Shown here: positions 43,587 to 59,789 of the stretch, piece by piece
Position numbering within the stretch: the stretch's first letter is position 1
How the letters are laid out: each line of letters begins with the position of its first letter
Source: Sinorhizobium fredii
GTDB taxonomy: Bacteria; Pseudomonadota; Alphaproteobacteria; Rhizobiales; Rhizobiaceae
Length of the DNA: 64,000 nt
Reading direction: 5' to 3'
NCBI RefSeq assembly: GCF_002944405.1
Contig: NZ_CP024308.1
Span: 186,001-250,000, forward strand
Notes under the pieces: generated by a model
Databases searched by the model: none
The model's input: only the letters and a program-made list of their open reading frames with translations
What the model was told of the DNA's origin: nothing
Position numbers and translations under genes: made by a program

Positions 43587-43628
43587 GGAGCTGTTCCGGT
43601 TTCCGCCAGGACTGAACTCCAGTTAATA

Positions 43629-43789: not shown

Positions 43790-44617
43790 CTAGCCGAGCG
43801 GCGAAAGTCGGGCCAGGGTGTCCCCTCGCCTGTCGCTGTGAAGCAAGTGCAGGCAGCGCCGTTTCAGTCGCATGAACTCGCTTGATGCGATGATCTTGGT
43901 GGTTCTCGGTCTGTCAAAGGGGACTTTGATTTCTTCGTGAATCCGGCCGGGCTGCGCCTGCATGACGATGATGCGGTCTGCAAGCAACAAGGCTTCGTCG
44001 ATGTCATGGGTGACGAAGACGATGGTCTTGCGGAACTGCTCCCAGATTTCGAGCAACAGTTCCTGCATCCTGAGCCTCGTCAATGCATCCAGTGCTCCGA
44101 AGGGTTCGTCCATCAGCAGGAGCTTCGGCTGGTTGATGAGGACGCGCGCGATCTCCACACGCTGCTGCATACCGCCGGAAAGCTCGGACGGATAACGATC
44201 GGCAAACCCGCTCAAGCCGACCAGATCGAGCACCCTCTCCGCTTCGAGCCTCCTCTCCGAACGCCCAATGCCGCGCATCTTCGGACCGAAAGCGACGTTG
44301 TCGCGGGCATTCTTCCAGGGAAAAAGCGTGTGGTGCTGAAAAACGATGCCGCGCTCCGGATCGGGGCCGTTAACGGCTAGACCATCGACCGAGAGCCTGC
44401 CCGCGGCCGGAATGATATGCCCTGCCAATGCACCGAGCAGCGTGGATTTGCCACAGCCGGAGGGACCCAGGAGGCAAACGAACTCGCCGGGCGAAACCTC
44501 GAAGCTGACATCGCTGACGGCTTCGAACATCGTGCTGCCGCGGCCAAGCCTGATCGAAACGTGCTCGGCCTCGACTCGTCCGGTCGCAGCACCGGCTATG
44601 CGCTTCTGGATGTTCAT
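43790..44617 (-). CDS. ABC transporter ATPase, TauB/SsuB type
   Basis: A 275-residue ATPase. Walker A GPSGCGKST, Q-loop VFQHHTLFPWKN, signature LSGGMQQRVEIARVL, Walker B LLLMDEPFGALDALT and the switch His in VFVTHDIDEAL are all present; the PWKN after the Q-loop marks the nitrate/sulfonate/taurine class. ATG 44617 overlaps the stop of the permease gene (ATGA). It energises uptake of an aliphatic sulfonate or similar oxyanion with the permease and binding protein that precede it in the operon. Confidence 0.95.
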   Translation of the reverse strand: MNIQKRIAGAATGRVEAEHVSIRLGRGSTMFEAVSDVSFEVSPGEFVCLLGPSGCGKSTLLGALAGHIIPAAGRLSVDGLAVNGPDPERGIVFQHHTLFPWKNARDNVAFGPKMRGIGRSERRLEAERVLDLVGLSGFADRYPSELSGGMQQRVEIARVLINQPKLLLMDEPFGALDALTRLRMQELLLEIWEQFRKTIVFVTHDIDEALLLADRIIVMQAQPGRIHEEIKVPFDRPRTTKIIASSEFMRLKRRCLHLLHSDRRGDTLARLSPLG

Positions 44618-45399
44618 TGACGGCCTTCCTTCTTGTTCCATGGCAGGAGTGCGGTCCCCGCCGCCTTGAGGAGCGCACTGCTCGCCATGCCGAGCAGCCC
44701 GATCACGACCATGCCGACGATGATCTCGGGATAGTTCTGCAAGGTGTAGGATTCCCAGGTGTAGTAGCCGATGCCGAACTGGCCGGAGATCATCTCCGCC
44801 GTGACGAGGCAGAACCATGACGTTCCCATGCCGATCACCAGCCCTGTGACGATATTCGGCGCCGCACCCGGAATGATGACCTCGAACAGCATGGCGGCGC
44901 GGGTGCTTCCGAGGCTCCTGGCCGAGGCGATCAGCCGCGGATCGACACTTTCCACGCCATGGACCGTGTTGATGACGATTGGAAACAAAGCCCCGGTGAA
45001 GGTGATGAAGATCATCGAGAGTTCCGACGATGGGAACATCAGAACCGCGAGCGGGATCCACGCGACGGCAGGGATCGGCCGCAACAGTTCGAGAGGCGTC
45101 TGCAGAAAATCCCCGAGAACGCGAAAGCGTCCAATGATGAGGCCGAGCGCGACTCCGACGGCAGCCGCGATCGCATAGCCTGCAAAGACCCGTCCAAGAC
45201 TGCTCGAGACATGGGCGAAAAGCCGCGGCGAGGCAAGGAAATCGAGCATTGCGATAACCACATCCACCGGCGACGGCACATTCTCGAAGGTAACGATGCC
45301 GAGACTCACCTTGAGGCTGGACGCCATCTGCCAAACGAAGAGGCAGATGGCGAGCGAGCCGGCCCGGCGCAGCCAATGTCCGATGAGGGAGCCGGTCAT
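44614..45399 (-). CDS. ABC transporter permease, TauC/SsuC type
   Basis: A 261-residue inner-membrane protein with about six helices and the EAA loop SVDPRLIASARSLGSTRAAM followed by LFEVIIPGAAPNIVTGLVIG. GTSWFCLVTAEMISGQFGIG and YYTWESYTLQNYPEIIVGMV are standard for the nitrate/sulfonate permeases. It begins 8 bases after the binding-protein gene ends and overlaps the ATPase gene, so the three form a tight operon. Confidence 0.95.
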   Translation of the reverse strand: MTGSLIGHWLRRAGSLAICLFVWQMASSLKVSLGIVTFENVPSPVDVVIAMLDFLASPRLFAHVSSSLGRVFAGYAIAAAVGVALGLIIGRFRVLGDFLQTPLELLRPIPAVAWIPLAVLMFPSSELSMIFITFTGALFPIVINTVHGVESVDPRLIASARSLGSTRAAMLFEVIIPGAAPNIVTGLVIGMGTSWFCLVTAEMISGQFGIGYYTWESYTLQNYPEIIVGMVVIGLLGMASSALLKAAGTALLPWNKKEGRQ

Positions 45400-45407
45400 C
45401 GGTGGCC

Positions 45408-46820
45408 TCAGTTGCTTGCCAGGATCGACGATTTCACGCCGGTAAAGTCAAGCACGTTTCCGCCATGTGCCTTTGCCCAGCTTTCCGCATTTTCCTTGAG
45501 GAGGAACGCGCTGACCTCGCCGCTGTCGGCACGCACGAACCAGGCCTGCTCGCCGATGAGCTTGATTCCGCTCTCGCGATCCTGGGCGTAGAAGACCCGG
45601 ATCGCCTTGCCATCTCCTTCTATCGCCTTGAGGGCCTTCAGCGCGTTTTCGGGCGAGGCATAGTGCCTGACCTGCGGTTCTCCATCGACCCAGATCTCGG
45701 CGACGCGCTTCGGATCCTTGATTGGCTCGCTGGTGGCAGCATCCTTGGCTGTAAGCGGCAACTGCTCATAGTTCTTGAGGGCCGCCTCGTAATCGAGGCC
45801 CGACGCCTTGAACGCAGCGCGAATGAAGCGGTCGTCGACGAAGCTGTCGACGTCCAGCGATCCGTCCGCCTTCTTGAGAGACTTTAGGGTTTCGATGGCC
45901 GTGGCGACGGCCTGCCGATACTGAGGTTTCCATGTGAGGTCGCGGGTCTGCAGTCCGAGAGGACCGTGGAACAGATAGTCGACCTCGGCCTCGACACCGG
46001 TGACCTTGCCGATCAGCTCGCTGTATTTCTCAGGCTCCTTGGCGATCAGCTGATCCGCCTCGATCGCAGCGCGAAGATAGGCGACGACGATTTCCGGATA
46101 TTTTTCCGCATAGGAGGCGTCGACCAGAGCGCCATGAAAGGTCGGCGTCTTCGCCTGCGAGCCATCATAAATCTTTCGGGCAAAGCCGCGCCACGGGAAG
46201 AGCTCGGCGAAGGGAACGAAATCGGCATGGGCCTCGATCTGGTTTGCCTTGAGTGCGGCGCCGGCGACCTCGGGAGCCTGGGTGATGATGCTCACGTCGC
46301 TCTCCGCGTCCCATCCCTGCGCCTTGACAGCGCGAAGCAGCATGCCGTGCGAGGTGGAGGCAAACGGCACCGAGATCGTCTTGCCCTTCAATTCAGGAAG
46401 CGACTGGATCGGCGAATCCGTGGGCACGACAATGCCGTTGCCGCTACCGTTCACGCTACCCGAAAGGACGGTGATGAACAGGCTCTTCCGTCCGGCCTTG
46501 AGGTGCGCGAGGCCGTTGAAGGAGCCGGGAAAATCCGCCATCACCCCGAAGTCGAGCTTGCCGGCGATCTGCTCGTTGGTGATCGGTGCGCCACTCGTGA
46601 AGTTCTTCCATTGAATGTCGTAGGTGGCGTCCTTGTACTTGCCGTCATGCGGAAGATATTTTTCAAGCAGCTTCAGCTCGCGGATGAGCAGGCCGCCGGT
46701 CGCGGTGTTGATGGTAGTATCCTGAGTGCCGATCGCCACCCGGATGGTCTCGGCCTGGGCGGTTGAAGCAAAGCCGGGTGCCGCCAAGGCAAGGGCCACG
46801 AGATGTGTGCGCAAGTTCAT
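45408..46820 (-). CDS. ABC transporter substrate-binding protein, NrtA/TauA class, long form
   Basis: A 470-residue exported binding protein, longer than typical TauA or SsuA (~320). The signal peptide ends at ASTAQAE. The N-terminal lobe shows VAIGTQDTTINTATGGLLIR, then EQIAGKLDFGVMADFPGSFN and the PFASTSHGMLLRAVKAQGWD hinge. The extra C-terminal ~120 residues (EIWVDGEPQVRHYASPENAL and AQDRESGIKLIGEQAWFVRA) form an added domain. Its ligand is unknown; an oxidised organosulfur acid fits the region. The gene heads the operon and is divergent from a Crp-type regulator. Confidence 0.93.
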   Translation of the reverse strand: MNLRTHLVALALAAPGFASTAQAETIRVAIGTQDTTINTATGGLLIRELKLLEKYLPHDGKYKDATYDIQWKNFTSGAPITNEQIAGKLDFGVMADFPGSFNGLAHLKAGRKSLFITVLSGSVNGSGNGIVVPTDSPIQSLPELKGKTISVPFASTSHGMLLRAVKAQGWDAESDVSIITQAPEVAGAALKANQIEAHADFVPFAELFPWRGFARKIYDGSQAKTPTFHGALVDASYAEKYPEIVVAYLRAAIEADQLIAKEPEKYSELIGKVTGVEAEVDYLFHGPLGLQTRDLTWKPQYRQAVATAIETLKSLKKADGSLDVDSFVDDRFIRAAFKASGLDYEAALKNYEQLPLTAKDAATSEPIKDPKRVAEIWVDGEPQVRHYASPENALKALKAIEGDGKAIRVFYAQDRESGIKLIGEQAWFVRADSGEVSAFLLKENAESWAKAHGGNVLDFTGVKSSILASN

Positions 46821-47160
46821 GGTTCTATCCCATAGTCGTGCCGCGGGTTCTTGCCCGCCGGCTTCCAGTTGACTGACCCCAGTGTCGATCGCCGAACCGC
46901 TGTCGAGCGAATTTATGAGGCGGCTGTCAAAGCGGGATAAGCAATTATTTGCGGCGTGCCGGCCGGCACTTTGGCGCAAGCGTTCGGCTACTAACCCGGA
47001 TTTTTGCTTATGTAATAAGCTGTTAGCTGCGGCATAGGCATCCCGGCCGGTGGTGGTAGCGGGACAAACGTCCAAGCTCCTCCGGAAAAGAGCAATGATT
47101 TTCCTTTATATTAGATAGATTCTATATAGTTTTATCCGGGGACTGAAGAGGGAAGTCATC
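46821..47160. promoter_or_regulatory. Divergent promoter region with AT-rich palindromes
   Basis: This 340-base gap between the binding-protein gene (leftward) and the Crp gene (rightward) has no gene. It contains GCTTA-tgtaa-TAAGC at 47006-47020 and, close to the Crp start, TATATTAGA...TCTATATA at 47107-47128 (one unpaired base). These AT-rich symmetric elements may bind the Crp-family protein or another regulator. No classical Fnr or Crp box is evident. Confidence 0.4.
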
Positions 47161-47964: not shown

Positions 47965-47974
47965 CGCCGCCCTT
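47950..47974. terminator. Hairpin terminator overlapping the Crp-family stop codon
   Basis: AAGGGCGGCG (47950-47959) and CGCCGCCCTT (47965-47974) form a perfect 10-bp GC-rich stem with a 5-base loop carrying part of the stop codon. It serves the end of the Crp gene and of the convergent HEAT-repeat gene, which stops at 47986. Confidence 0.7.
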
Positions 47975-47985
47975 GCGCGAGAGAT

Positions 47986-48942
47986 CTACCCTAGCTTTGT
48001 AAGTGCCCAGCGAACCGTCTTGCGCACGTCCGGATCGGCATCGGATGCAAGTTCCATCAGCGACTCCCGTGCGGCGGGATCAGCGATCTCGCCGAGTGCG
48101 GCGGCCGCCTCTTTACGCAGAGCCGGGATCTCGCTTTCGAGCAGTTGCGCTATGGCCGGGACCGCCGTCTGCACCTTGAGCTTGCCCAACGCGCCGAGGC
48201 TTTTCTGCTGGACCTGCCAGTATTCATCGCCAAGACCTTTCACCAGCACGTCAGCGTCGCAGACCCGACCGATGCGGCCGAGCGATTCCGCCGCGGCCGC
48301 CCTGACTTGCCAGTTCTCGTCGCTAAGAGCGGCGGCCACGGCGGCACGGGCTGCGGCTTTCGTCGTGAAGGTCAATGCGTCGACGGCGACGGCCCGGACG
48401 CTCGCGTCGGCGTCGCACGTCGCATCGATCAGCGACGGCAGGGTCTCCTCGAGCTTGAGGTAGGCAATGACGGCAAGGGCCTCGGCCCTGACGTTCGGAT
48501 CCGCGTCGCGCATTGCGCCAAGCGCCGGCCCGAGCGATGAAGACGAGCGCAGCGCTCTCAACCCCCGAAACAACGCGGCACGGACAAAGGCGCTTGGGTG
48601 GCTAAGGGAAGGCAGGATTTCCGCTGCCGCTGCCGGGTCCTTGACCTCAGCAAGACTATCCGCCGCTGCTTGTGCGACCGATGGGTCGTCATCCTTCACC
48701 AGCTTGGCGAGGGCTCTCGCGGCATCGCGCGTCTCGAACTCGCCAAGCGCGATCGCCACCTGCAAGCGCACGCTCGCATCGTGATCCTCGCCAGCGGCCA
48801 AGAGATGTGGCAGCACGTCGATGCTTGCAGTTTCGGCAAGATCAATCACCGCGAGCCTGCGTACGGCCGGGTCTGCGTCGGTGAGCCGCTCGGCGATCTC
48901 CTCGGCGTCGCCGAAGTCTTCGAAGGGGTCGAACGCACTCAT
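47986..48942 (-). CDS. HEAT-repeat (PBS lyase-type) protein
   Basis: A 318-residue all-helical solenoid made of about ten ~31-residue HEAT/PBS-lyase-like repeats, each with D-x-D-P/A-x-V-R-x-x-A (for example TDADPAVRRLAVIDLAETAS and DADASVRAVAVDALTF). No enzyme motif is present; such proteins act as scaffolds or assist cofactor attachment. It ends the leftward run flavoprotein-ferredoxin-HEAT and starts only two bases before the ferredoxin stop region, so it is probably made with them. It may hold the flavoprotein/ferredoxin complex or help load its cofactors. That role is inferred. Confidence 0.92.
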   Translation of the reverse strand: MSAFDPFEDFGDAEEIAERLTDADPAVRRLAVIDLAETASIDVLPHLLAAGEDHDASVRLQVAIALGEFETRDAARALAKLVKDDDPSVAQAAADSLAEVKDPAAAAEILPSLSHPSAFVRAALFRGLRALRSSSSLGPALGAMRDADPNVRAEALAVIAYLKLEETLPSLIDATCDADASVRAVAVDALTFTTKAAARAAVAAALSDENWQVRAAAAESLGRIGRVCDADVLVKGLGDEYWQVQQKSLGALGKLKVQTAVPAIAQLLESEIPALRKEAAAALGEIADPAARESLMELASDADPDVRKTVRWALTKLG

Positions 48943-48943
48943 G

Positions 48944-49177
48944 TCAGCGCAGCAGATACGGAATGTTGACGGTGACCGCGCCGGTCGGGCAGTCCGTTTC
49001 GCACGGCATGCAGTACCAGCATTCGTCGAACTTCATGAAGGCCTTTCCGGTCAGATCGCTGATCCGCAACACGTCGAGCGGGCAAACGTCGACGCAGACG
49101 GTGCAGCCTTTGTCGGCAATGCATTTCGCATCGTCGACGACGACGGGAACGGTGGTGGGCGAAAGCGCGAGGGGCAT
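48944..49177 (-). CDS. AprB-like 4Fe-4S ferredoxin
   Basis: A 77-residue ferredoxin with two 4Fe-4S sites. The first Cys set is in KCIADKGCTVCVDVCP (Cys-x5-Cys-x2-Cys-x3-Cys), unlike the usual spacing and closer to AprB of adenylylsulfate reductase; the second is ECWYCMPCETDCPTGAVTV (Cys-x2-Cys-x2-Cys-x3-Cys), again very like AprB. The gene follows the AprA-like flavoprotein by 12 bases. In the asf system of Pseudomonas putida (as I recall) a ferredoxin, AsfB, serves the flavoprotein AsfA. It would pass electrons to or from the flavoprotein. Confidence 0.93.
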   Translation of the reverse strand: MPLALSPTTVPVVVDDAKCIADKGCTVCVDVCPLDVLRISDLTGKAFMKFDECWYCMPCETDCPTGAVTVNIPYLLR

Positions 49178-49189
49178 TTTCTCTCCTGG

Positions 49190-50929
49190 TCAGGCTTGAT
49201 TGGAAACGCGCAGGCGCTCGTAGGCGGTGCGCTCCTCGTGCTCGATTGGCACGATATAAGGCTCGATCGCCCGCTTTTCGGACACCATTCGGCCGTCGAC
49301 CTTGCGAAGCAGCGTATGGCAGAACCAATTGTCATCGTCCTTGTCGGGGTAGTCGACACGATTATGGTAGAGGCCCCAGCGGCTCTCGGTCCGATAGAGC
49401 GAAGCCTGGGCCGCCATGTCGGCGCAATCGAGAATCGAGGAGACTTCCAGCGAGCGCATCAGTTCATGCGGATTGCGCGCGACGAGCGCCCTCTCGAGAT
49501 CTTCCCTGACTTCTGCAAGCCGCGCCTGCCCGATCTGCATCTTCGCGGTAACCTTGGGCGGCTGGAGATAGTCGTTGACGAGGCGCCGGGTCTTGTATTC
49601 CAGCTGGTTCGGCGGAATGCCGTCGTCGCGCCGGGTCGGCGCCAGCACACGTTGGCGCTCGAGGCTGACCAGTTCGCTGTCGAACTCCGGCAGGTCGATC
49701 TCACCCGCAACCCCGGCAGCGTGTTCGCCGGCGATCGCGCCATTGGTGAATGCGCCGAGCATGTAGTTGTGCGGGACACTCGCCATATCGCCTGCGGCAT
49801 AGAGGCCCGGCACGGTGGTGCGGGCGAATTCATCGACGAAGACCCCGGACGCACTGTGCCCCGAGCAGAAGCCGATTTCCGAGATATGCATCTCGATCAT
49901 CACCTCGCGGTAGTCGGTCCCGCGCGCTTGATGGAACCTGCCGCGCGACGGCCGCTCAACCTTGTGCAAGATCTGTTCGATCTCGCCGACGGTGTCGGGA
50001 TGCAGATGATTGAGTTTCAGGAAGACCGGGCCCTTGCCCGACTGCAGTTCGTTGTAGAATTCCTGCATCATCTGTCCCGACCAGTAGTCACTCTCGATGA
50101 AGCGCTTGCCTTCGCTGTTCGCCGTATAGGCGCCGAACGGACCAGCGACATAGGCGCAGGCCGGTCCATTATAGTCCTTGATCAACGGATTGATCTGGTA
50201 GCATTCGAGATTGGCCAGCGCGGCGCCTGCGTGATAGGCCATCGAATAGCCGTCACCGGAATTCGTGGGGTTCTCGTAGGTTCCGAACAGGTAGCCCGAA
50301 TGCGGCAGGCCGAGCCGGCCCGCTGCACCCATGCAAAGGATCACGGTCTTGGCGCGAAGCACGAGAAACTCGGCCGAGCGCGTATTCACCGCGATGGCGC
50401 CCGCTATCCTGCCGTCCTTCGCCGTCAGCAGCCGTGTTGCCATGAAGCGGTTGGAAATCAGGATCCTTTCCCGCCTGATCTGGCGGTAGAGCGCCTTCTT
50501 CACCGTGTCGCCGTTCGGCATCGGCAGGACATAGGTTCCGAGATGATGAACCTTCTTCAGGTCGAAGTCGCCATTGGCGTTCTTCTGGAAGCGTATGCCG
50601 AAGCGGTCGAGCTCCTCGATGATTTCGAAACAGCGTGAGGCATACTTGAACACCGGCGCCTGATCGACGATGCCGTCATTGGCGATGGTGATCTCCTTGG
50701 TGTACTGCTCCGGCGTGGCGTATCCCGGCACGACGGCATTGTTCAGCCCATCCATGCCCATCGAAATCGCGCCTGAGCGCTTCACATTGGCCTTTTCGAG
50801 TAGCACCACGTTCAATTCGGGATTTCGCTGCTTCGCTTTCAACGCCGCCATCGGTCCGGCCGTACCGCCGCCGATCACCAGAACATCGCAAGTTACTTCC
50901 GTGAGGCCTTCGACAAAATTGTCTTCCAT
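49190..50929 (-). CDS. AprA/AsfA-like flavoprotein (fumarate reductase/adenylylsulfate reductase family)
   Basis: A 579-residue FAD protein. The dinucleotide motif VIGGGTAGPMAALKAKQ is near residue 18, ERANVKRSGAI-like KANVKRSGAISMGMDGLNN follows, then GYLFGTYENPTNSGDGYSMA, and the flavin end motif ARTTVPGLYAAGDMASVPHN. C-terminal helical segments resemble AprA more than succinate dehydrogenase, and the typical fumarate-site His/Arg set is not obvious. With the AprB-like ferredoxin it forms a soluble two-subunit reductase. AsfA, a protein of this type, is required for desulfonation of aromatic sulfonates in P. putida, so a role with sulfonates is proposed. Confidence 0.93.
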   Translation of the reverse strand: MEDNFVEGLTEVTCDVLVIGGGTAGPMAALKAKQRNPELNVVLLEKANVKRSGAISMGMDGLNNAVVPGYATPEQYTKEITIANDGIVDQAPVFKYASRCFEIIEELDRFGIRFQKNANGDFDLKKVHHLGTYVLPMPNGDTVKKALYRQIRRERILISNRFMATRLLTAKDGRIAGAIAVNTRSAEFLVLRAKTVILCMGAAGRLGLPHSGYLFGTYENPTNSGDGYSMAYHAGAALANLECYQINPLIKDYNGPACAYVAGPFGAYTANSEGKRFIESDYWSGQMMQEFYNELQSGKGPVFLKLNHLHPDTVGEIEQILHKVERPSRGRFHQARGTDYREVMIEMHISEIGFCSGHSASGVFVDEFARTTVPGLYAAGDMASVPHNYMLGAFTNGAIAGEHAAGVAGEIDLPEFDSELVSLERQRVLAPTRRDDGIPPNQLEYKTRRLVNDYLQPPKVTAKMQIGQARLAEVREDLERALVARNPHELMRSLEVSSILDCADMAAQASLYRTESRWGLYHNRVDYPDKDDDNWFCHTLLRKVDGRMVSEKRAIEPYIVPIEHEERTAYERLRVSNQA

Positions 50930-50945
50930 TGTTGTTCCCTAAGCC

Positions 50946-51227
50946 TCACGAATTGGCGATGTCCCGCAGATAGCTCCACGGATAGATGCCGCGGTCATGG
51001 CCATCGGAAAAACCTAGGCGCACGGCGTAGGAGCCGATCGTCTCGGCGCTCGTGATGGTCACGTCGTCGAACGAACCCTCCCTGCCCTCGATGGAAGATC
51101 GGACGTGATGAGCCGCTCGGCTGAGCGCGCGCAACCGTGAAGCCGGGATGGAGGAGAGATTGCCGTCATCCCACGTGATGGCGAGTGAGCGGCGCTCGGC
51201 GTTGATTCTTAGTTCCAAAGGTATCAT
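50946..51227 (-). CDS. DUF971 (gamma-butyrobetaine hydroxylase-like N-terminal) protein
   Basis: A 93-residue stand-alone DUF971 domain: PLELRINAERRSLAITWDDG, then ETIGSYAVRLGFSDGHDRGI and the conserved end YPWSYLRDIA. ATG 51227 is chosen; an upstream frame start would add unrelated residues. DUF971 occurs at the C-terminus of some iron-sulfur carrier (ApbC/Mrp) proteins and at the N-terminus of gamma-butyrobetaine hydroxylase, so a role in Fe-S or Zn handling for the adjacent ferredoxins is plausible but not shown. It lies between two flavoprotein/ferredoxin sets. Confidence 0.88.
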   Translation of the reverse strand: MIPLELRINAERRSLAITWDDGNLSSIPASRLRALSRAAHHVRSSIEGREGSFDDVTITSAETIGSYAVRLGFSDGHDRGIYPWSYLRDIANS

Positions 51228-51360
51228 GGCGTTTCCTGATCGTTGGACGCCATTGTAGGAATCGACCCCGGTTGGACACGCAATAAATTGCCTGATCGGC
51301 CGCCGCGGTGAAAAAGCGGCGGCCACTCTCTCTTCCCTGCAGCATTGCTGACTTGTCGCT

Positions 51361-51680
51361 CTACTGCGGGAGGCGAAAATGGTCGTCGACCCGGCGCAGG
51401 TGGCGCGTTTCCTTCGCCCATCCGATCGATCGACGATAACTGCCGAACAAGTTCGCTTGCTTCACGTTTTCCACCGTCAGCCCGTATGCGTTCGCCGGAT
51501 CGGGATCGACGTAGAGCGAATCCACCGGACAATAGACCTCGCACATGAAGCAGGTCTGGCAGTCGCCCTGTCGGGCGATAACCGGAGGGCCGTCGCAATG
51601 GCGTCGAACACGTTGGTCGGGCAAACCTTGACGCAAAGATTGCAGTCGGTGCAGGTTTCCGTGTCGATGACTTCGATCAT
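51361..51680 (-). pseudogene. Second 2[4Fe-4S] ferredoxin with frameshift
   Basis: ATG 51680 opens MIEVIDTETCTDCNLCVKVC PTNVFDAI, the first cluster (Cys-x2-Cys-x2-Cys-x3-Cys). At about 51595-51600 one base is missing; in the next frame it continues GPPVIARQGDCQTCFMCEVY then CPVDSLYVDPD and the tail NLFGSYRRSIGWAKE, ending at 51361. The second cluster set is intact, so the ancestral protein was about 105 residues. The start overlaps the stop of the flavoprotein pseudogene (TAATG). Either a decayed copy or a sequencing error. Confidence 0.8.
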
Positions 51681-53288
51681 TACTCGGCCGCCTCGCGAAA
51701 AATCGGTTCTTCAACGGGTTCCGGCCTGACCGCGATATGTCCGAGCCCGCTGACGATCAGCCTATGGCGCTGTGCCGGATCCTGTTTCGAGAAATCATCC
51801 CGGCGGTGCATGCCGCGCGTTTCGGTGCGCGCAAGCGCAGCGCGGTACATCCAGCGCGCCGTCGCGGTCATCGCCGCCACCTCCCGCAGACGAAGCAAGT
51901 CTAAGTGGGAGACGCCGCCGCTAGTCTCCAGTCTTTCCCAAAGATCATCGAGGCGATGAACCTCGCGGGACAGAGCAGCCTCGGTCCTGAAATAATTCAC
52001 GTCGAGCGGAAAGACCGCCTGCTGCACGGCCTGCAGTGCCGCGTTCGTGTCGAGCTCTCGCGCGGCCCCCGCATAGCCCGCTCGACCAAGGCGCCGCAGC
52101 ACGGGACTGGGCTTTTTCTTCAGCGCAAACTTAGCAGCAGCGGTCCCGGCAAAAGCGCCGGTCGCAATCGCCCACGCGGCATTGTGGCTGCCGCCGCCGG
52201 TAAAGCCGCCGCAAATCGGCTCGCGGGTCGCATTGTCGCCGGCGCATAGAGACCCGGCACCGTGGTGGCGCAGTCGAGCCCCGTCAGCCGCAGCCCACCG
52301 GTGCCGCGCACCGTGCCTTCGAGCCGAAGCGTAACCGGAAATCTCTCGGTGAAGGGATCGATGCCGCGCCGGTCGAAGGGAATGAAGAAATTCGGTTGTG
52401 CGCGGCGCATGATCGCCTTCAACGCGTCGGTCTCGGCGAGATCGAGCCGTGCATAAACAGGCTCCGACAACAGCGTGCGGGCGATGATCGAGCGTCCCCG
52501 CGCTGAACCCGCGCCCTCGATCAGGGTTCCATCCTCGCGATAGAACCGCGCGAAACGATAAAGCGCCGTCTTGGTAATCGAGGCGAAGCTCGGCGAACGT
52601 AAGCCGACGAGAACTCCATGCCGGAAAGCTCCGCTCCCGCTTCCGCCGCCATCAGATATCCGTCTCCGGTTAGCACGTCGCAGCCGAGCGCCTTGCTCAT
52701 GAAGGCACATCCGCCTGCTGCCATGATGACGGCAGCCGCGCGCACGATCCAGTTGCCGCCCTCCTGCCGACGAATGCCGGTCGCGCCGGCGATCGCGCCG
52801 GTGCCGTCGCGGACAAGTTCGAGCGCCGGCGAATGATCGAGTATCCGAACACCGGCATTCTTCACCTTGCGGCGCATCAGCCGCATGTATTCCGGCCCCT
52901 GGACCGAGATACGCTGCTCGATCCCCTGCTCATTGGACGGAAATGGATAGCCCCAGGCAGCCAGCCGATTGACGCTTTCCCAGGTTTTGTCGAGGATCGG
53001 AACCATCCAGCGCCGCTCAGAGAGATAGCCGCCCATCCCCTCCCGGCTTGCCATGGCGGTTTCCCGCTCGCGCGGATCGGGCGGCACGTACCAGATCTGG
53101 GTGCCGGCTGAGGCGGTGGCGCCGGAACTGCCGCAATGCCCCTTGTCGACCAGGACAACCTTCGCGCCAGCTGCGAACGCATTGAGCGCTGCCCAGCAGC
53201 CGGCTGGTCCACCGCCCACGACGAGGACATCCGTTTCGATCTCGAGAGAGGATTCCCGATTGCCTGGTGTCGGATCGCGCTCAGTCAT
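51680..53288 (-). pseudogene. Second AprA/FrdA-like flavoprotein with two frameshifts
   Basis: The N-terminal part reads TDVLVVGGGPAGCWAALNAF, then HCGSSGATASAGTQIWYVPP and FSSAY at about 52610, where the frame is lost. The middle part SPSFASITKTALYRFARFYR to TVPGLY lies in a second frame, and after about 52247 the third frame gives AGDNATREPICGGFTGGGSH and the C-terminal LRRLGRAGYAG...FREAAE. Each switch needs one extra base, so two single-base deletions have occurred. Rejoined, the protein would have about 535 residues, with FAD motifs kept. It is a divergent paralogue of the 49190-50929 flavoprotein, paired with its own ferredoxin. Confidence 0.85.
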
Positions 53289-53315
53289 GACGATACCTCT
53301 TGATCGTGTTTCGTA

Positions 53316-53329
53316 TTTAGTACACTAAA
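53316..53329. promoter_or_regulatory. Candidate operator TTTAGT-AC-ACTAAA
   Basis: A perfect palindrome (6-bp arms, central AC) in the 72-base divergent gap between the second flavoprotein gene and the PhnD-type binding-protein gene. Its AT-rich core in a GC-rich neighbourhood and its position over both promoters make it a good regulator-site candidate. Confidence 0.45.
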
Positions 53330-53360
53330 ACGGTCGATTATAACTGCAACCGAGGTCCTC

Positions 53361-54170
53361 ATGCGGATTGCCAGCCTTGCAATGTATGTCAGCCCGCCAC
53401 CGGTCGCGGCGGCGACGACGGCGCTGTGGGCGTTCATTCGGGACGACTTGCGGCGGGAGGGACTCCATGATGTCCCGGAAGGCTTGAGCGCCGACATCCG
53501 CTATGACGAAAGCTGGAGTCACCCTGACCTGTTGCTGGCGCAGACCTGCGGCTATCCTTACATCCGGCATCTGCGCGGCAAGGTCCGGCTCGTCGCGACA
53601 CCGGTCTATTCGCATCCGGGCTGCGACGGTCCGGCGAAATGCAGCTTCATCATCGTGCGCCAGAATTCGCCAGTGCGCGCCCTTGAAGAGCTCCGCGGCG
53701 CGCGGGCCGCCATCAACGAAGCCGGCAGCAATTCCGGGGTCAATCTGTTCCGCGCCGCCGTCGCGCCGTTTGCGAGCGGCGGCCGGTTCTTCGCCTCCGT
53801 GGTCGAGACCGGAGGCCACCGCGCCAGCATCGACGCCGTCGCGTCCGGTGCCGCGGATGTGGCCGCAATCGACTGCGTCACCTATGGCAATACGCTGCGT
53901 TTCGATCCCGAACGCCTGGCCGGAATCCGCGTGCTTGAAGAGACCGTCAAGGGTCCGGGGCTGCCGTTCATCGCTCGCGCGGCGGCATCCGACCGAGAAA
54001 TCACGGCTCTGCGCGGGGCGCTCAAAAGGGCGATCGCCGAACCGTCGCTGGCCGAAACGCGCGACACGCTGGCGCTCAAGGATTTCGTCGTCCTTGCGGA
54101 CGCGGATTACGAACCATTGGCCGAGCTTGAGCGATCTGCGCATCGCCTTGGCTACCCGGTCATCGCCTGA
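53361..54170 (+). CDS. PhnD/SsuA-class periplasmic-binding-like protein (AsfC-like)
   Basis: A 269-residue binding protein of the phosphate/phosphonate-type class: RIASLAMYVSPPPVAAATTA, SHPDLLLAQTCGYPYIRHLR, then VATPVYSHPGCDGPAKCSFI and the ligand loop INEAGSNSGVNLFRAAVAPF. No clear signal peptide is visible, so it may act in the cytoplasm or be exported without a classical signal. Divergent from the AprA-like flavoprotein gene, it occupies the place of AsfC, the binding protein of the asf arylsulfonate system. It overlaps the end of the convergent ATPase gene by 19 bases. Confidence 0.88.
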   Translation: MRIASLAMYVSPPPVAAATTALWAFIRDDLRREGLHDVPEGLSADIRYDESWSHPDLLLAQTCGYPYIRHLRGKVRLVATPVYSHPGCDGPAKCSFIIVRQNSPVRALEELRGARAAINEAGSNSGVNLFRAAVAPFASGGRFFASVVETGGHRASIDAVASGAADVAAIDCVTYGNTLRFDPERLAGIRVLEETVKGPGLPFIARAAASDREITALRGALKRAIAEPSLAETRDTLALKDFVVLADADYEPLAELERSAHRLGYPVIA

Positions 54171-55114
54171 ACGACGCCTGTCTCGACTGGAAAATGGCAG
54201 GCAACGGCTCGGCCGTCCGAGACGGTCTCGAGCCGCGGCTGCGTCGTTGCGCAGACAGCCCTTGCGACGGGACAGCGGCCGTGGAAGCGGCAGCCGGGCG
54301 GCGGCTCGTGCGGGCTCGGCAACTCTCCCTTCAGCACAATCCGGTCGCCGCGTCTTTGCGCATCGACTGTCAGGTTCGAGGAAAGCAGCGCCTGGGTGTA
54401 GGGATGCGCCGGACTTGAAAAGAGCTGGCGTGTGCCGCCGCATTCGACGATCTGTCCGAGATACATGATAGCGACCCGATCGGTGACCCGTCCGACCACG
54501 TTGAGGTTGTGCGAGATGAACAGGTAACTCAGTTGCAGCCGGTCCCTCAGCGATCGCAAGAGGTTGAGCAGTTCGCCCTGGACGGAGATGTCGAGACCCG
54601 CAGTCGGCTCGTCGGCAACGATGATCGAAGGCTCGGCGGCAATCGCCCGCACCAGCGCCACCCGCTGGGCCTGCCCGCCGCTCAACTGGTGCGGATAGCG
54701 CGGCAGCAGTTGCTTGCCGAGGCCGATGCTTTCGGCCAGCGCTGCGATGCGCGCCCAGCTTTCGGCCGAATAGGTCCTGCGGATCTTCAGCGGCTCGGCC
54801 ATGAGCGCGCCGACGGTGAGGCGCGGGGAAAGCGAGCTTGCCGGATCCTGGAAGAGAAGCTGGACCTTGCGCTGCAGATCACGCCGCCGTACGGCAGTGC
54901 TACTGCCAAGCACTTCCCCGCCAATCGCGAGCTCTCCCGAAGACAAGGGCTGCAGTCCGGCGATCGCGCGGGCCACCGACGTCTTTCCGCATCCGCTCTC
55001 GCCCACGAGGCCGAGCGCTTCGCCGGGACGCAGTTCGAGCGAGAGGCCGTCGACGGCGGTCATCCTGCCGTAGCGGATTACCGCGTTCTTGAGGGAAAGA
55101 GCGAGCGCACTCAT
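54152..55114 (-). CDS. Dpp/Opp-type ABC transporter ATPase (DppF-like)
   Basis: A 320-residue ATPase: Walker A GESGCGKTS, Q-loop LLFQDPASSLSPRLT, signature LSGGQAQRVALVRAI, Walker B IIVADEPTAGLDISVQ and switch His in LFISHNLNV. The C-terminal oligopeptide/dipeptide domain with three Cys (GCRFHGRCPVARAVC) marks the DppF/OppF group, which can hold a 4Fe-4S cluster. ATG 55114 overlaps the upstream gene stop. It is the last gene of the leftward five-gene transporter operon. Confidence 0.95.
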   Translation of the reverse strand: MSALALSLKNAVIRYGRMTAVDGLSLELRPGEALGLVGESGCGKTSVARAIAGLQPLSSGELAIGGEVLGSSTAVRRRDLQRKVQLLFQDPASSLSPRLTVGALMAEPLKIRRTYSAESWARIAALAESIGLGKQLLPRYPHQLSGGQAQRVALVRAIAAEPSIIVADEPTAGLDISVQGELLNLLRSLRDRLQLSYLFISHNLNVVGRVTDRVAIMYLGQIVECGGTRQLFSSPAHPYTQALLSSNLTVDAQRRGDRIVLKGELPSPHEPPPGCRFHGRCPVARAVCATTQPRLETVSDGRAVACHFPVETGVVQAMTG

Positions 55115-56088
55115 CGCGAAGCATCCTGCCAACAGGAGAACCTGTGTCCCGCCTCCACCTGCCGACGTGGCGGCGGTTCGCTGCATCGCGCGTGGCTTTC
55201 GGTGCAGCGCGCAGCGAAGATGCATCCGGCGGGACGACATGCCGGATCCGGTACGATCCCCGGAATCGTCGCGAGGTCCTGTTCGGGATCGAAGTCGGAA
55301 TAGGGATCGATCTCGCAGGCAAGCAGCGCGCGGGTGTAGGGATGGAGCGGCTTGCGCAGGACCGCCTTGACCGGCCCGCTTTCCACCACCGTTCCGGCAT
55401 ACATGACGACGACGCTGTCGCAGAGTTCGGCGATCAGCCCCATGCTGTGGCTGACGACGAGCATCGAGGACCGGGTCCGCCGCCTCAGGCGCTGCAGCGC
55501 TTCGACCACCTGCATCTCGATCGTCGCATCGAGCGCCGTCGTGGGTTCATCGGCGATCAGCAGCTTGGGCTCGACGAGCAGCGCCATCGCGATGACGACA
55601 CGCTGCCGCATGCCGCCGGAAAACTCATGCGGATAGGCACGCATCCGTCGTGGCGCATCCGGCACGCCGACTTCGGCGAGCACGCGCTCCGCCCGCGCCC
55701 ACAGTTGCGAGCGGCGGTCCTTGGGGAAGCGGCGGCGCTGTATGTCGACCAGTTGCGTGCCGATCGTGAATAGCGGATTGAGCGAACTCATCGGATCCTG
55801 AAAGACCATGGCAATCTCGGTGCCGCGGAGCGCTTCGGCCTCCTTTGTTGCAAAGACATTCTCGCGGCTATCGAAGGCGGCGCGGCCGGCAGACACTTCA
55901 GCATCGTCCGCCAGAAGGCCAAGCAGGGCGAAGGCCACGGTCGACTTTCCGCTGCCGCTCTCGCCGACGAGACCGACGGCCTCTCCATGTCCGATGGTGA
56001 TGTCCACCGAATCCAGAACATGCGCGGTCGCCCCGGCGCCGGGATAGGAAACGTTCAGTTTCTCGATGGCGACAAGGGCTTCGCTCAC
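55111..56088 (-). CDS. Dpp/Opp-type ABC transporter ATPase (DppD-like)
   Basis: A 325-residue ATPase: Walker A GESGSGKST, Q-loop MVFQDPMSSLNPLFT, signature FSGGMRQRVVIAMAL, Walker B LLIADEPTTALDATIE and switch His in VVSHSMGLIAE. The C-terminal Cys motif GCIFAARCTESHARC marks the DppD/OppD group. The start is GTG 56088 in a GTGA overlap with the permease stop. The long open frame upstream to 56325 is not part of this gene. Confidence 0.95.
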   Translation of the reverse strand: MSEALVAIEKLNVSYPGAGATAHVLDSVDITIGHGEAVGLVGESGSGKSTVAFALLGLLADDAEVSAGRAAFDSRENVFATKEAEALRGTEIAMVFQDPMSSLNPLFTIGTQLVDIQRRRFPKDRRSQLWARAERVLAEVGVPDAPRRMRAYPHEFSGGMRQRVVIAMALLVEPKLLIADEPTTALDATIEMQVVEALQRLRRRTRSSMLVVSHSMGLIAELCDSVVVMYAGTVVESGPVKAVLRKPLHPYTRALLACEIDPYSDFDPEQDLATIPGIVPDPACRPAGCIFAARCTESHARCSEPPPRRQVEAGHRFSCWQDASR

Positions 56089-56918
56089 AGGTGCTTCCTC
56101 AGCTTGGGATCGAGTGTGTCGCGCATGGCCTCCCCCAGAAGCGCAAAGCCGAGAGTGGCAAGGATCAGTGCCAGGCCGGAAAAGGTGGCGAGCCAGATCG
56201 ATTGCTCGAGATAGGTGTAGCCGTCGTTGAGCAGACTGCCCCAGCTCGCCAGCGGCGGCCGCACACCGAGACCGAGGAAACTGAGGCCTGCCTCGATGGT
56301 GATGACGACCGGGATGTCCATGCAAGCGAGCACGAAGATCGGGCCGATGATGTTCGGAGTGACATGGTGCAGGATAACCCGCCAGCGCTCCGCCCCCAGC
56401 ACCTTTTCCGCCTCGATAAAAGGACTGTTGCGAAGCGCGATCGTCTGCGCCCGTGCGACCCGGCCGAAATGTGGGATGAAAACGATGCTGACAAGGAGCA
56501 CGACGTTTCCCAGCCCCGGCCCCAGAACCGCGACGAGCGCCAGCGCAAGAATGATGCTCGGAAACGAGGTGACGATATCGAAGATTCCGACGATCGAGAA
56601 GTCGACCGCACGCGGCGACAACGCGGCCGCAATGCCGAGCGCAACGCCGGCGATAAGCGAAATGGCGATCACCGACAAGGCGACGCCAAGGGCGACGCGG
56701 GAGCCGTAGATCAGGCGGCTTAGGATATCGCGGCCAAGATGGTCGGTGCCGAGAAGGTGCTGGAAGGATGGATCCATCAGCCGCTTTGCTGGCGCGATCG
56801 CATTTGGGCCATAGGGTGCGATCAGCGGCGCGGCGATTGCGACCAGGCAGATCATCGTGACGGCAAAGAGCGCGAAAGCTCCGCCCGGTCGGCGGGCGAT
56901 TTGGAGCAGGGCCGGCAT
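56085..56918 (-). CDS. Dpp/Opp-type ABC permease (DppC-like)
   Basis: A 277-residue inner-membrane permease with about six helices. N-terminal region GPNAIAPAKRLMDPSFQHLL then GTDHLGRDILSRLIYGSRVA is diagnostic for DppC. The EAA loop is at EAEKVLGAERWRVILHHVTP. It overlaps the DppD-like start (GTGA) and follows the DppB-like gene by three bases, so all five genes are one operon. Confidence 0.95.
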   Translation of the reverse strand: MPALLQIARRPGGAFALFAVTMICLVAIAAPLIAPYGPNAIAPAKRLMDPSFQHLLGTDHLGRDILSRLIYGSRVALGVALSVIAISLIAGVALGIAAALSPRAVDFSIVGIFDIVTSFPSIILALALVAVLGPGLGNVVLLVSIVFIPHFGRVARAQTIALRNSPFIEAEKVLGAERWRVILHHVTPNIIGPIFVLACMDIPVVITIEAGLSFLGLGVRPPLASWGSLLNDGYTYLEQSIWLATFSGLALILATLGFALLGEAMRDTLDPKLRKHL

Positions 56919-56921
56919 GGC

Positions 56922-57899
56922 TCAGGTCCCCCGCGCTGCGGCGAGGCGGGATCGCTCGCGTGGATCGAGGAGGCTCTGCGTCAGATCGGCAGAAAGATTG
57001 GTCAGCACGTAAAGAAGCACCGTGATGAACACGCCACCCTGCACCACCGGATAGTTGCGGGTGCGGATCGCGTCATAGATCAGCGAGCCGAGGCCAGGCC
57101 GATTGAAGATCACTTCGACGAAGACTGCGCCGCCGAGAAGTTCGCCGAACCCCATCGAGAGAATCGCAATGGTCGGTAGAATCGCCGGCTTCAATGCATA
57201 TTTCATCAGGATCTTCGCTTCGCTGACGCCATAGGCGCGTAGAGTGCGGATGTGGTTCTCACCCAAAACCTCCAGCAGCGACGAGCGCAACAGGCGGGCG
57301 AGGTAGCCGATCCAGCCGACGGCAAGGGCGGCGGTCGGAAGCACCAGATGCCACAACTGGTCGCCGACAGCACCGGCCTCACCTGCTCCGAGTACCGGGA
57401 ACCAGCGCAAAGTCACCGAGAACGTCATGAGCAGGAAGACCGCGACCACGAAGCTCGGCGTCGAGATGAAACCAACGCTGAGGAACGCCACGAGACGGTC
57501 CGTCTTGCCGCCGGGATTGCGCGCCGACAACAGCGCCAGCGGCACCCCGAACAGAATGGCCGAGAGCATGGCGGAGAACGCCAGCGCCACCGTGTTGGGC
57601 AGCGCCGCCGCAACGAGCCCGGCCACCGGCCGGCCGTTGAAGACATCCTCTCCGAGATCACCGGACAAAAGGTGGGCGAAGAAGGCGAGCACTTGCTCGC
57701 CGACCGGCCGGTCGAGGCCGATACGGGCGTTCAGCGCGGCGACGGCCTCCGGGGTCGCGCGCGAGCCGAGAATGACGGTTGCCGGATCGCCCGGTATGAG
57801 GCGCGTCAATGCCATCAGGATCACGACGGAACCGGCAACGGCGAGAAGCGCCGTCGCCAGCTTGAAGGCAAGGTGGATCCGGAAAGACGCGCCTCTCAT
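56922..57899 (-). CDS. Dpp/Opp-type ABC permease (DppB-like)
   Basis: A 325-residue inner-membrane permease. The N-terminal ALTRLIPGDPATVILGSRAT followed by VAALNARIGLDRPVGEQVLA is the DppB signature, and the EAA loop is at LRAYGVSEAKILMKYALKPA. The segment GLGSLIYDAIRTRNYPVVQG near the C-terminus is conserved in the family. It pairs with the DppC-like protein to form the channel. Confidence 0.95.
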   Translation of the reverse strand: MRGASFRIHLAFKLATALLAVAGSVVILMALTRLIPGDPATVILGSRATPEAVAALNARIGLDRPVGEQVLAFFAHLLSGDLGEDVFNGRPVAGLVAAALPNTVALAFSAMLSAILFGVPLALLSARNPGGKTDRLVAFLSVGFISTPSFVVAVFLLMTFSVTLRWFPVLGAGEAGAVGDQLWHLVLPTAALAVGWIGYLARLLRSSLLEVLGENHIRTLRAYGVSEAKILMKYALKPAILPTIAILSMGFGELLGGAVFVEVIFNRPGLGSLIYDAIRTRNYPVVQGGVFITVLLYVLTNLSADLTQSLLDPRERSRLAAARGT

Positions 57900-57941
57900 T
57901 GCCGGGCGCCCCTTTCAGGCTTGGCGAATACCGGCACGGTG

Positions 57942-59504
57942 TCAGGCCGTGGCTTCGGTGAAGGCCGTGTACAGCCAGTTGTTGCCGTTCGGCAGGACAC
58001 CCGGCTTCAGCCATTTGCGCGAGGCAAAGGCATTGAGGTTGTGGGTGATCCAGATGAAGGCTGCGGATTCATCGAGAAGCTTCTGGGCATCGATATAGAT
58101 CTTTTCCCGTTCGGCCTGATCGACAGTGACGCCACCCTTCTCATGCAGCGCGTCGAATTCGGCATTTTTCCAACGCTGCCAGTTCCACTGCCCGACCTGG
58201 GCCGAAGTGAACCATTGCGTCTGGAAGCCCGGATCGAACTTGCCGTTGAACTTTATGAGCGACAGTTCGAGGTCTTTGCTGGCATCGTTCTCGCCGAGCG
58301 CCCAGTAAGCGGCGGATTCCAGCGCCTCGATCTCGACCTCGATGCCGACTTCGGCGAGATTCGCCTGAATGATCTGCGCGATCGCTTCATAGCGTGCGGT
58401 GGACTCGATGGTCAGCTTCGTCTTGAAGCCGTTCGGATGGCCGGCTTCGGCAAGAAGCGCCTGCGCCTTCTCGAGGTCACGCGAATAGACCGGGGCGTCC
58501 TTCCAATAGCCGAGCAGGCTCGGCGCCAAGAGCGAATTGGCGCGCGGATAGAGTCCGGAATAAGCGCCCTGCAGAATCGCATCGACGTCGACCGTATAGC
58601 GGATCGCCCGGCGCACGCGGATGTCGTCGAACGGCGCTTTTTCGATATTCGGGCCGAACCAGACATAGTCGATCGCGGGGATCTCGGTGACGCTCGCATC
58701 CGACAGCCCGGCAAGCTCCTTGCCGCTTTCCGGATCGATTGCCGTGAAGTCGATCTCGCCGGAGCGGAACGCGATTTCCGCGGTCTTCTGCTCGCCGATC
58801 GGCTTCCCGACGATTTGCTGGAAATGCGGTTTGATCGGCCCCTTGTAGTCCGGGTTGATTTCCAGGACGAACTGTTCGCGCGGCGTCCATTCCTTCAGCA
58901 CGTACGGTCCGCTGCCGATCAGCTTGGTGGCGATATCCTTGCCGAGGGCCTCGAACGCTTTCTTCGAGATGATGCGTCCGGACCCGTCGGCCAGCGCGAT
59001 CGTGTAGAGGGCGGGCGCCGGGTTCTTGAGAATGATGCGCCCCTCGAGCGGACCGGTCACTTCTACGCGCTCGAGTGCCGCCCAATCCTTGGCATAGGTT
59101 ACCGGCTTGCCCTCTGCATCGGGCTTGATGAAGCGCTCGAAGGAGAATTTCACATCCTCCGCCGTCAGCTCCCCGTACCCGCCGGTAAAGGTCAGTCCGC
59201 TGCGAAGCTTGAAACGGATCTCCCTATCGCTGACCTGCTCCATCTCTTCGGCCGCGTCGAGCTCCCACTCGATCGAGCCGGGTTTGAAAGAAATCAGCCC
59301 CTGCTGCACCGACCAGATTACATTGAGATCGATCGGCCCGGAACGGTTCGCCGGGTCGAGATTGGATAGGTCCTTCTCCACGCGCACCACGATCTTGGTG
59401 CGATCGGCACTTGCAAATGCCGGATGAGTGCCGCCAATGGCGACGACAGTGGCAAGCGATGCGCCGCCGATGAGTACCTGCCGGCGGGTCGAATTGAATG
59501 TCAT
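57942..59504 (-). CDS. Dpp/Opp-type substrate-binding protein (SBP family 5)
   Basis: A 520-residue exported binding protein. STRRQVLIGGASLATVVAIG suggests a Tat signal. The family-5 fold shows LSNLDPANRSGPIDLNVIW, TAEDVKFSFERFIKP, IGSGPYVLKEW, the hinge RRAIRYTVDVDAILQ and SLLAPSLLGYW. GGAGGCATCCC precedes ATG 59504. SBP-5 proteins bind peptides, nickel, opines, glutathione or other bulky amino-containing compounds. Within this sulfur region, glutathione or S-containing peptides are possible ligands, but the sequence alone cannot decide. Confidence 0.94.
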   Translation of the reverse strand: MTFNSTRRQVLIGGASLATVVAIGGTHPAFASADRTKIVVRVEKDLSNLDPANRSGPIDLNVIWSVQQGLISFKPGSIEWELDAAEEMEQVSDREIRFKLRSGLTFTGGYGELTAEDVKFSFERFIKPDAEGKPVTYAKDWAALERVEVTGPLEGRIILKNPAPALYTIALADGSGRIISKKAFEALGKDIATKLIGSGPYVLKEWTPREQFVLEINPDYKGPIKPHFQQIVGKPIGEQKTAEIAFRSGEIDFTAIDPESGKELAGLSDASVTEIPAIDYVWFGPNIEKAPFDDIRVRRAIRYTVDVDAILQGAYSGLYPRANSLLAPSLLGYWKDAPVYSRDLEKAQALLAEAGHPNGFKTKLTIESTARYEAIAQIIQANLAEVGIEVEIEALESAAYWALGENDASKDLELSLIKFNGKFDPGFQTQWFTSAQVGQWNWQRWKNAEFDALHEKGGVTVDQAEREKIYIDAQKLLDESAAFIWITHNLNAFASRKWLKPGVLPNGNNWLYTAFTEATA

Positions 59505-59789
59505 GGGATGCCTCCAATTTTCGCGGCATCCGACCACACTTGGCCGGTCCGCGCCCTCAACGAAGGCGATTAGAGTTCATTGTACATTAAATCTACAGAC
59601 TAAATCAACTCAGTCGTAGGTCAATTTCGGAATGCCATTTCGTATTTTCACTTGAGTTGGCAACGGCATTGCGAATCCGTCGTTCGCAGCTCGCTAGCAC
59701 TTGATCTAAATAGTCGTAATCTATAGAAATGATATATTAGATTACAGTGCTGTTTTTGCAGCGCTTTTCCTTGTATCCCGGAGTTTCGA
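59505..59789. promoter_or_regulatory. Divergent promoter region, AT-rich
   Basis: The gap between the Dpp-type operon (leftward) and the desaturase gene (rightward) is markedly AT-rich around 59575-59750, with TGTACATTAAATCTACA near 59580 as a weak inverted repeat. No gene is seen. Promoters for both directions must lie here. Confidence 0.45.

Follow-up and report, generated by a model that had tools for sequence, protein, structure and literature searches.

Aerobic use of sulfonates, as it is known, relies on oxygen to break the C-S bond, as in the reactions of SsuD and TauD. Pairs of a flavoprotein and a small ferredoxin are found in adenosine 5'-phosphosulfate (APS) reductase, AprAB, and in the 3'-phosphoadenosine 5'-phosphosulfate (PAPS) reductase of Methanothermococcus thermolithotrophicus, for which passages of PMC10322725 describe an alpha subunit that contains flavin adenine dinucleotide (FAD) and belongs to the fumarate reductase family, a small beta subunit with 2[4Fe-4S] (structure 8a8o), retention of the proposed catalytic residues and a proposed mechanism in which FAD N5 attacks the sulfur. 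A comparable pair, AsfA/AsfB of Pseudomonas putida S-313 and C. metallidurans, is accompanied by ATP-binding cassette (ABC) uptake and a LysR-type regulator, AsfR, and is described in passages of PMC4267179 as a reductase and ferredoxin in aromatic desulfonation. Here, a module of conserved genes is described from a 64,000-nucleotide stretch of a Sinorhizobium fredii genome of 6.56 Mb in four contigs (contig NZ_CP024308.1, positions 186,001 to 250,000; hereafter the window), the flavoprotein of which is, by tree and alignment, a relative of the APS and PAPS reductases with an altered substrate site. With a probability put at about 0.48, the module may import a sulfonate-like anion and release sulfite from it through a reduction driven by NADPH and ferredoxin.

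A conserved gene set around an AprA-like flavoprotein

The intact module, at 43790-51227 of the window, consists of about eight genes, each assigned with the backing of Pfam or NCBIfam (Table 1). Those for a DUF971 protein, the flavoprotein, its ferredoxin and a HEAT-repeat protein follow one another in that order on the minus strand, with gaps of 16, 12 and 1 bases between them; facing them on the plus strand is a Crp/Fnr regulator gene, and beyond it, again on the minus strand, lie the binding protein, permease and ATPase genes of a sulfonate-type ABC transporter. A sequence-only reading of the window had picked out an AprA/FrdA-type flavoprotein, a 2[4Fe-4S] ferredoxin and HEAT, DUF971 and PhnD-type proteins, all of which are present, and had missed the transporter and regulator (43790-47964) as members.

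The set was followed through 93 loci, made up of 80 genome loci, 12 plasmid loci hand-picked from 73 matching records, and the window itself. As the genome loci were taken from the top of a set of 589 confirmed relatives (the best 80), they lean towards close relatives (68-91% identity), and 30 of the 93 belong to the Bradyrhizobium/Rhodopseudomonas group. Partners were counted by phmmer with score thresholds, using probes drawn from within the 93, such that each count includes its source locus (L028 and L052 for YeiH; L026, L028 and L029 for TauE/TSUP; L107 for the reductase; L074 for FdxA; L029 for GntR; L059 for the amidase; and L062 for SCO1, PCuAC, the cytochrome and the membrane protein). 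Loci L018, L025 and L032, the last being the window's near-identical counterpart, came from AsfA searches and stand outside the 93.

Both the composition of the gene set and its cohesion are well established. All 93 loci have a ferredoxin gene near that for the flavoprotein, 91 of them within 500 bp, and 92 have a HEAT gene, 71 of them within 500 bp; a DUF971 gene is present in 75, and the binding protein, permease and ATPase genes in 82, 81 and 83, respectively. Where at least 8 kb of sequence is available on each side (76 loci), 66 hold the ferredoxin, HEAT and three transporter genes together, and 55 the DUF971 gene too. The proposal that HEAT and DUF971 genes are conserved companions of the flavoprotein is hence borne out. 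To the extent covered by their gene tables, the set also occurs in four annotated records, from Leptolyngbya, S. americanum plasmid B (the gene table of which is incomplete, without binding protein and permease entries), Rhizobium acidisoli and Paraburkholderia sprentiae.

The distribution of the module is widespread but patchy. Examples include Cyanobacteria, an actinomycete and Acidithiobacillus, and the flavoprotein exceeded its cut-off in 15 of 299 genomes of an even draw of Pseudomonadota and 3 of 240 genomes of an alphaproteobacterial draw, each including the window's own. A threshold of E <= 1e-30 was reached by 6439 of 8000 scored flavoprotein candidates, which need not all belong to the module clade; the 120 listed are 79-94% identical. 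No description of the module was found in the open-licence PMC literature, as judged by titles and the starts of abstracts among the matches listed, and it does not appear in passages of PMC13352529; as the sequence-only reading had supposed, the complete set is apparently undescribed.

The flavoprotein scores 1074.6 bits against the NCBIfam model PRK08275 (NF006131; cut-off 587), making it a member of this family, the product name of which, 'fumarate reductase/succinate dehydrogenase flavoprotein subunit', denotes no specific function and is shared with PRK13800; in the search output, neither family is linked to partners or a pathway. It falls below the cut-offs of the models for aprA (152.7 bits against 641.75), sdhA_frdA (155.1 against 567.3) and the AprA-like PAPS reductase (NF005331; 274.5 against 557), from which it is also separated as a clade. 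The nearest solved sequence is the PAPS reductase alpha subunit 8a8o (E 8.1e-59), followed by two AprA proteins. In a 43-row maximum-likelihood tree (without L005 and L006, with the fusion protein of L023 trimmed to residues 1-590, and with an incomplete L067 row), 18 module flavoproteins form one clade (support 100/99), sister to AprA plus the methanogen-type PAPS reductase (99/98). Outside this assemblage are two rows from the window's own genome, presumably SdhA and NadB, as well as, in the best tree, the nine AsfA-type rows. The flavoprotein groups with AprA and PAPS reductase, and not inside the succinate dehydrogenases. A forced clade of the two, flavoprotein and AsfA, is 11.2 log units worse but is not rejected by the approximately unbiased (AU) test (p 0.081); the AsfA branch is long, which makes the placement relative to AsfA provisional.

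Four functional residues of AprA were compared: Trp234 and Arg265, which belong to the substrate site, and Asn74 and His398. By alignment, counterparts of Asn74 and His398 (N63 and H358) are present in all 93 module flavoproteins, whereas Arg265 is replaced by Leu249 and Trp234 by Tyr218, again in all 93; PAPS reductase retains both the Arg and the Trp. Because these substrate-site residues are altered, the protein is not an APS or PAPS reductase. Resemblance to AprAB extends to flavoprotein family, FAD, the two conserved residues and the second Cys motif of the ferredoxin, while the aprA score, the replaced residues and the first Cys motif set the module apart. That first motif is C-x5-C-x2-C-x3-C in 90 of the 93 loci and C-x3-C-x2-C-x3-C in the other three, compared with C-x2-C-x7-C-x3-C in the aligned AprB of PDB 3gyx; the AprB-like Cys spacing ascribed to the ferredoxin by the sequence-only reading therefore applies to the second motif alone.

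In bacteria, the methanogen-type PAPS reductase has a counterpart on plasmid pILYOP02 of Ilyobacter polytropus (L141): a single cluster encodes CysC and CysD along with a ferredoxin and an AprA-like flavoprotein, which groups with 8a8o. The module is without such CysC and CysD partners in the annotated loci inspected (the other loci were not searched), and differs from PAPS reductase in its HEAT and DUF971 proteins, its own ABC transporter and the exchange of Arg and Trp for Leu and Tyr.

The sole locus lacking a separate HEAT gene, that of Tsukamurella (L023), encodes an 893 aa protein in which HEAT repeats are fused to the flavoprotein, a fusion matching PRK13800 at 1568 bits. The plant Fe-S factor HCF101 combines DUF971 with Mrp, and for this reason a role in Fe-S maturation is likely for the DUF971 protein. 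The annotation of the Pseudanabaena, Nostoc and Leptolyngbya loci shows an Mrp/NBP35 gene, with a NUBPL domain in the first two, and no DUF971 gene. Regulators are most often of the Crp/Fnr (55 of 93 loci) or GntR type (34 of 93, with a UTRA domain in L029); a LysR-domain protein was also read from the annotation of two cyanobacterial loci, the 93-locus count covering Crp/Fnr and GntR, not LysR.

Putative uptake, electron supply and export

The profile of the binding protein matched, among solved structures, TauA 6ssy (6.7e-26), SsuA 3uif (2.4e-22) and SsuA 2x26 (8.9e-20) best, with 3e4r, titled a nitrate transport protein, in fourth place. Its best NCBIfam model is SsuA_fam (E 1.5e-32), the cut-off of which it does not reach (113 bits against 163.5), and it likewise falls short of the taurine binding model (75.7 against 304.25). 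A C-terminal tail resembling NosL is a weak match: 36 of 47 binding proteins match PF05573 at E values up to 5, the best being 5.7e-7 and that of the window 0.0082; copper binding is a conceivable function of this tail. The permease is closest to NtrB of nitrate transporters. The transporter thus shares its types of binding protein, permease and ATPase with SsuABC and TauABC, but is distinguished by the extra tail and the scores under the family cut-offs.

Of the 93 loci, 42 have a gene for an NADPH:ferredoxin reductase within 10 kb, among them 16 of the 63 that are not of the Bradyrhizobium group; the median distance is 129 bp, and the L107 example matches PDB 2bgi (2.9e-113). FdxA genes were found in 25 loci. 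The proximity of ferredoxin-NADP reductase and FdxA genes indicates that electrons would flow in from NADPH, such that the flavoprotein would act as a reductase.

Proteins of COG2855, the YeiH type, are presumably sulfate or sulfite exporters. Their genes (PF03601, verified for L028, L052 and L062) were detected in 26 of the 93 loci: 20 of the 30 in the Bradyrhizobium group and 6 of the 63 elsewhere, where 0.17 would be expected, or 5 of 62 without the probe source L028. This expectation rests on 48 matches among 100 Pseudomonadota genomes of rounded size, a background frequency of 0.13 per Mb, and is a Poisson value treating loci as independent, which is not fully the case. YeiH and TauE genes directly follow the module in Pseudanabaena, as do, by annotation, genes for TauE and a 'putative sulfate exporter' in Leptolyngbya. 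Two Sinorhizobium copies of the module are situated among sulfonate/sulfate transport genes and tauD, one of them also beside ssuD.

The adjacent asf-type locus and surrounding sequence

The second flavoprotein/ferredoxin pair noted by the sequence-only reading does exist, in pieces at 51361-53288, but does not duplicate the first. In comparison with the intact proteins of Rhizobium sp. NXC24, identity is 57-86% for the flavoprotein pieces (51680-53288; against the AsfA-type protein) and 69-81% for the ferredoxin pieces (51361-51680; against the NXC24 ferredoxin), while the NXC24 AsfA-type protein and the intact module flavoprotein are only about 25-26% identical. By alignment, then, a known sulfonate-use system has left a frameshifted remnant here, a pair of the AsfA/AsfB type, and duplication of a single module was excluded: the two are different systems. 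Both broken genes have a single-frame match in S. americanum CFNEI 73, which hence carries an intact AsfA-type copy; the frameshifts are either real decay or sequence error. NXC24 shares the gene order seen here, namely desaturase, oligopeptide-type ABC transporter, PhnD-type protein, flavoprotein, ferredoxin and then SfnB, and because of this shared order the transporter at 54152-59537 was assigned to the asf-type locus together with the PhnD gene. PhnD and AsfA-type genes were found near the module in 1 of the 93 loci, the window itself, and PhnD was accordingly removed from the module, where the sequence-only reading had placed it. In the asf system, AsfC is presumably the binding protein. 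The C. metallidurans reference, on the unannotated record NC_007974, was judged by position to be the AsfA of PMC2864759.

The window matches plasmid C of S. americanum CFNEI 73, the flavoproteins being 99.8% identical. Within a 23.4-kb alignment, the 44-51 kb interval of the window has 0-3 mismatches per kb, with higher divergence outside it (151 per kb at 41 kb and 67 at 55 kb); at 60-64 kb the two are close again, at 3-14 mismatches per kb (0.3-1.4%). Measured against L032, on the same plasmid, the module block at 43000-51999 differs by 0-8 mismatches per kb, and the nearer flanks by 6-15% at 41-42 kb and 1.4-6.7% at 52-59 kb. This mosaic of a near-identical module block, more divergent near flanks and a close 60-64 kb interval suggests recent exchange. 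CFNEI 73 has two copies of the module flavoprotein, on plasmid B (L145, 92.9% identical to that of the window) and plasmid C (L032); the window's own genome has one.

Table 1. Features of the module and of the adjacent asf-type locus, in window coordinates
Feature	Position	Strand	Basis
AprA-like FAD flavoprotein, PRK08275 family, presumed catalytic subunit	49190..50929	-	Pfam FAD_binding_2, Succ_DH_flav_C; NCBIfam; tree
Small 2[4Fe-4S] ferredoxin, 12 bases past flavoprotein gene	48944..49177	-	Cys motifs, family match
HEAT-repeat protein, matching C-terminal part of fusion family PRK13800	47986..48942	-	Pfam, NCBIfam
DUF971 (GBBH-like_N) protein, presumed Fe-S maturation helper	50946..51227	-	Pfam
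Crp/Fnr-family regulator, provisional start codon	47161..47964	+	Pfam
Substrate-binding protein, SsuA/TauA-type, C-terminal NosL-like tail	45408..46820	-	Profile matches
ABC permease, NtrB/SsuC/TauC-type	44614..45399	-	Pfam/NCBIfam
ABC ATPase; top NCBIfam model taurine ATP-binding subunit, under cut-off	43790..44617	-	NCBIfam
Separate broken AsfA-type flavoprotein gene, three frames	51680..53288	-	Pfam, alignment to NXC24
Separate broken AsfB-type ferredoxin gene, two frames	51361..51680	-	Alignment to NXC24
PhnD-type binding protein, part of asf-type locus	53361..54170	+	Pfam, gene order
Oligopeptide-type ABC transporter, part of asf-type locus	54152..59537	-	Binding protein by Pfam; ATPases/permeases by open reading frames and NXC24 order

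After the transporter genes of the window's module, genes for flavin monooxygenases of the NtaA/DmoA and MsnO8 types occupy 41223-43586. Elsewhere, amidase genes neighbour the module at L022, L024, L069, L072, L074, L075, L080, L081, L086 and three loci of the Bradyrhizobium group, L059 included. Genes for SCO1, a cytochrome c and a membrane protein of approximately 230 aa without a Pfam match lie near the transporter at L062, L064, L066, L067, L069, L071, L072, L074 and L107, joined by PCuAC in all of these SCO1 loci except L071; in three of the four loci detailed, they are placed among the transporter genes.

Possible roles of the module and their significance

The substrate, the direction, the sulfite product and the HEAT and DUF971 roles that we infer are as follows. 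The SsuA/TauA-type ABC transporter would import an oxyanion, most likely an organosulfonate or a similar oxidised organosulfur compound, which the AprA-like flavoprotein and its own 2[4Fe-4S] ferredoxin would subject to a two-electron reduction in the cytoplasm, releasing sulfite. The chemistry would be like that proposed for APS and PAPS reductase, with attack of FAD N5 on the sulfur, and electrons would pass from NADPH through ferredoxin-NADP reductase to the ferredoxins. The HEAT protein may hold the flavoprotein or serve as one of its subunits, and the DUF971 protein, or Mrp/NBP35 in cyanobacteria, may supply or insert [4Fe-4S] clusters. Sulfite would then be assimilated or, where genes for YeiH- or TauE-type carriers are adjacent, exported. 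At slightly less than even odds, this reading draws on the position of the flavoprotein beside the AprA/PAPS reductase clade, the conserved Asn74 and His398 counterparts, the TauA/SsuA-like binding protein, the reductase and YeiH neighbours and the HEAT fusion; the direction towards sulfur given by the sequence-only reading is to that extent supported.

A number of observations weigh against the release of sulfite from a sulfonate. Chemistry on a sulfur oxyanion at the flavin is not assured, because the Arg and Trp kept in PAPS reductase are lost here, and the fourth-best solved relative of the flavoprotein is a succinate dehydrogenase (SdhA). No YeiH-type gene is found in the window's own genome, and TauE-type exporters are not enriched: with 3 of 63 loci against 1.7 expected, all three being probe sources, TauE enrichment was dropped as evidence, the caveat being that phmmer probes may under-count. 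DUF971 is absent from 18 of the 93 loci, an Mrp gene being found in two of these and none in the other 16. Two annotated copies of the module are in no evident sulfonate context, and it is present in Thiobacillus, Acidithiobacillus and Hydrogenophilales, where scavenging of sulfur is less obviously useful. Also unexplained are the amidase within 10 kb in 12 of the 93 loci, Nostoc and Methylocystis included, and the SCO1, PCuAC, cytochrome c and membrane protein genes near 11, 8, 9 and 9 loci, mostly of roseobacter type.

Part of this evidence would suit a module that handles a sulfur-free or nitrogen-containing oxyanion or small acid, with a flavoprotein resembling fumarate reductase or aspartate oxidase and sulfur-related neighbours that are incidental. 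The loss of Arg265 and change of Trp234, the NtrB-like permease, the amidase genes, together with GNAT genes in the Nostoc and Methylocystis loci, and the occurrence in sulfur-rich chemolithotrophs all fit such a role; it is nevertheless rather unlikely, as the tree and the three best structure matches favour AprA and PAPS reductase over succinate dehydrogenase, the binding protein most resembles those for sulfonates and YeiH-type exporters are enriched. That the flavoprotein and ferredoxin form just an electron chain, feeding an oxygenase encoded elsewhere, appears quite improbable. PMC4267179 gives the AsfAB reductase and ferredoxin such a role in aromatic desulfonation, the window's module is followed by flavin mononucleotide (FMN)-dependent monooxygenase genes, and reductase and FdxA genes lie nearby; however, luciferase-like monooxygenase (LLM) genes of the window's types (NtaA/DmoA and MsnO8) are near just 6 and 2 of the 93 loci, window included, and TauD near 4, a count of these types, while the nearest relative of proven function is itself a reductase, according to passages of PMC10322725.

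The sequence-only reading had considered that this may be an asf-like system for arylsulfonates or other organosulfur compounds, and an arylsulfonate is a possible substrate. A divergent asf system for arylsulfonates, of which the broken pair would be an older version of the same function, would account for the shared general parts, a flavoprotein, a small ferredoxin and ABC uptake, and a joint clade with AsfA survives the AU test. Such an identity is very improbable, given that AsfA lies outside in the best tree and that AsfA or PhnD genes are near the module in the window alone; the binding protein is of the SsuA/TauA and not the PhnD type, the regulator is mostly Crp/Fnr or GntR in place of the LysR-type AsfR, and HEAT and DUF971 proteins are added.

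The preferred reading remains that an anion resembling a sulfonate is imported and reduced, with sulfite set free. A bolder version of it, possible but doubtful, is that the module represents a third functional branch of the APS reductase flavoprotein family: an oxygen-independent reductive desulfonase, driven by NADPH and ferredoxin, for aliphatic compounds such as those like taurine or alkanesulfonates, with HEAT as an obligate subunit and dedicated uptake and sulfite export, that would have spread through Proteobacteria, Cyanobacteria and Actinomycetota.

If sulfite release is correct, the module would be an assimilatory, reductive counterpart to oxygen-based desulfonation, built on the APS reductase fold, and the sulfur cycle would gain a further route, in rhizobia, methylotrophs, cyanobacteria and soil Burkholderiales. 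Many proteins that currently bear the name 'fumarate reductase/succinate dehydrogenase flavoprotein' would also acquire a function. The HEAT and DUF971 proteins are placed in a testable biochemical setting, and the conserved set would be worth targeting even if its substrate were not a sulfonate.

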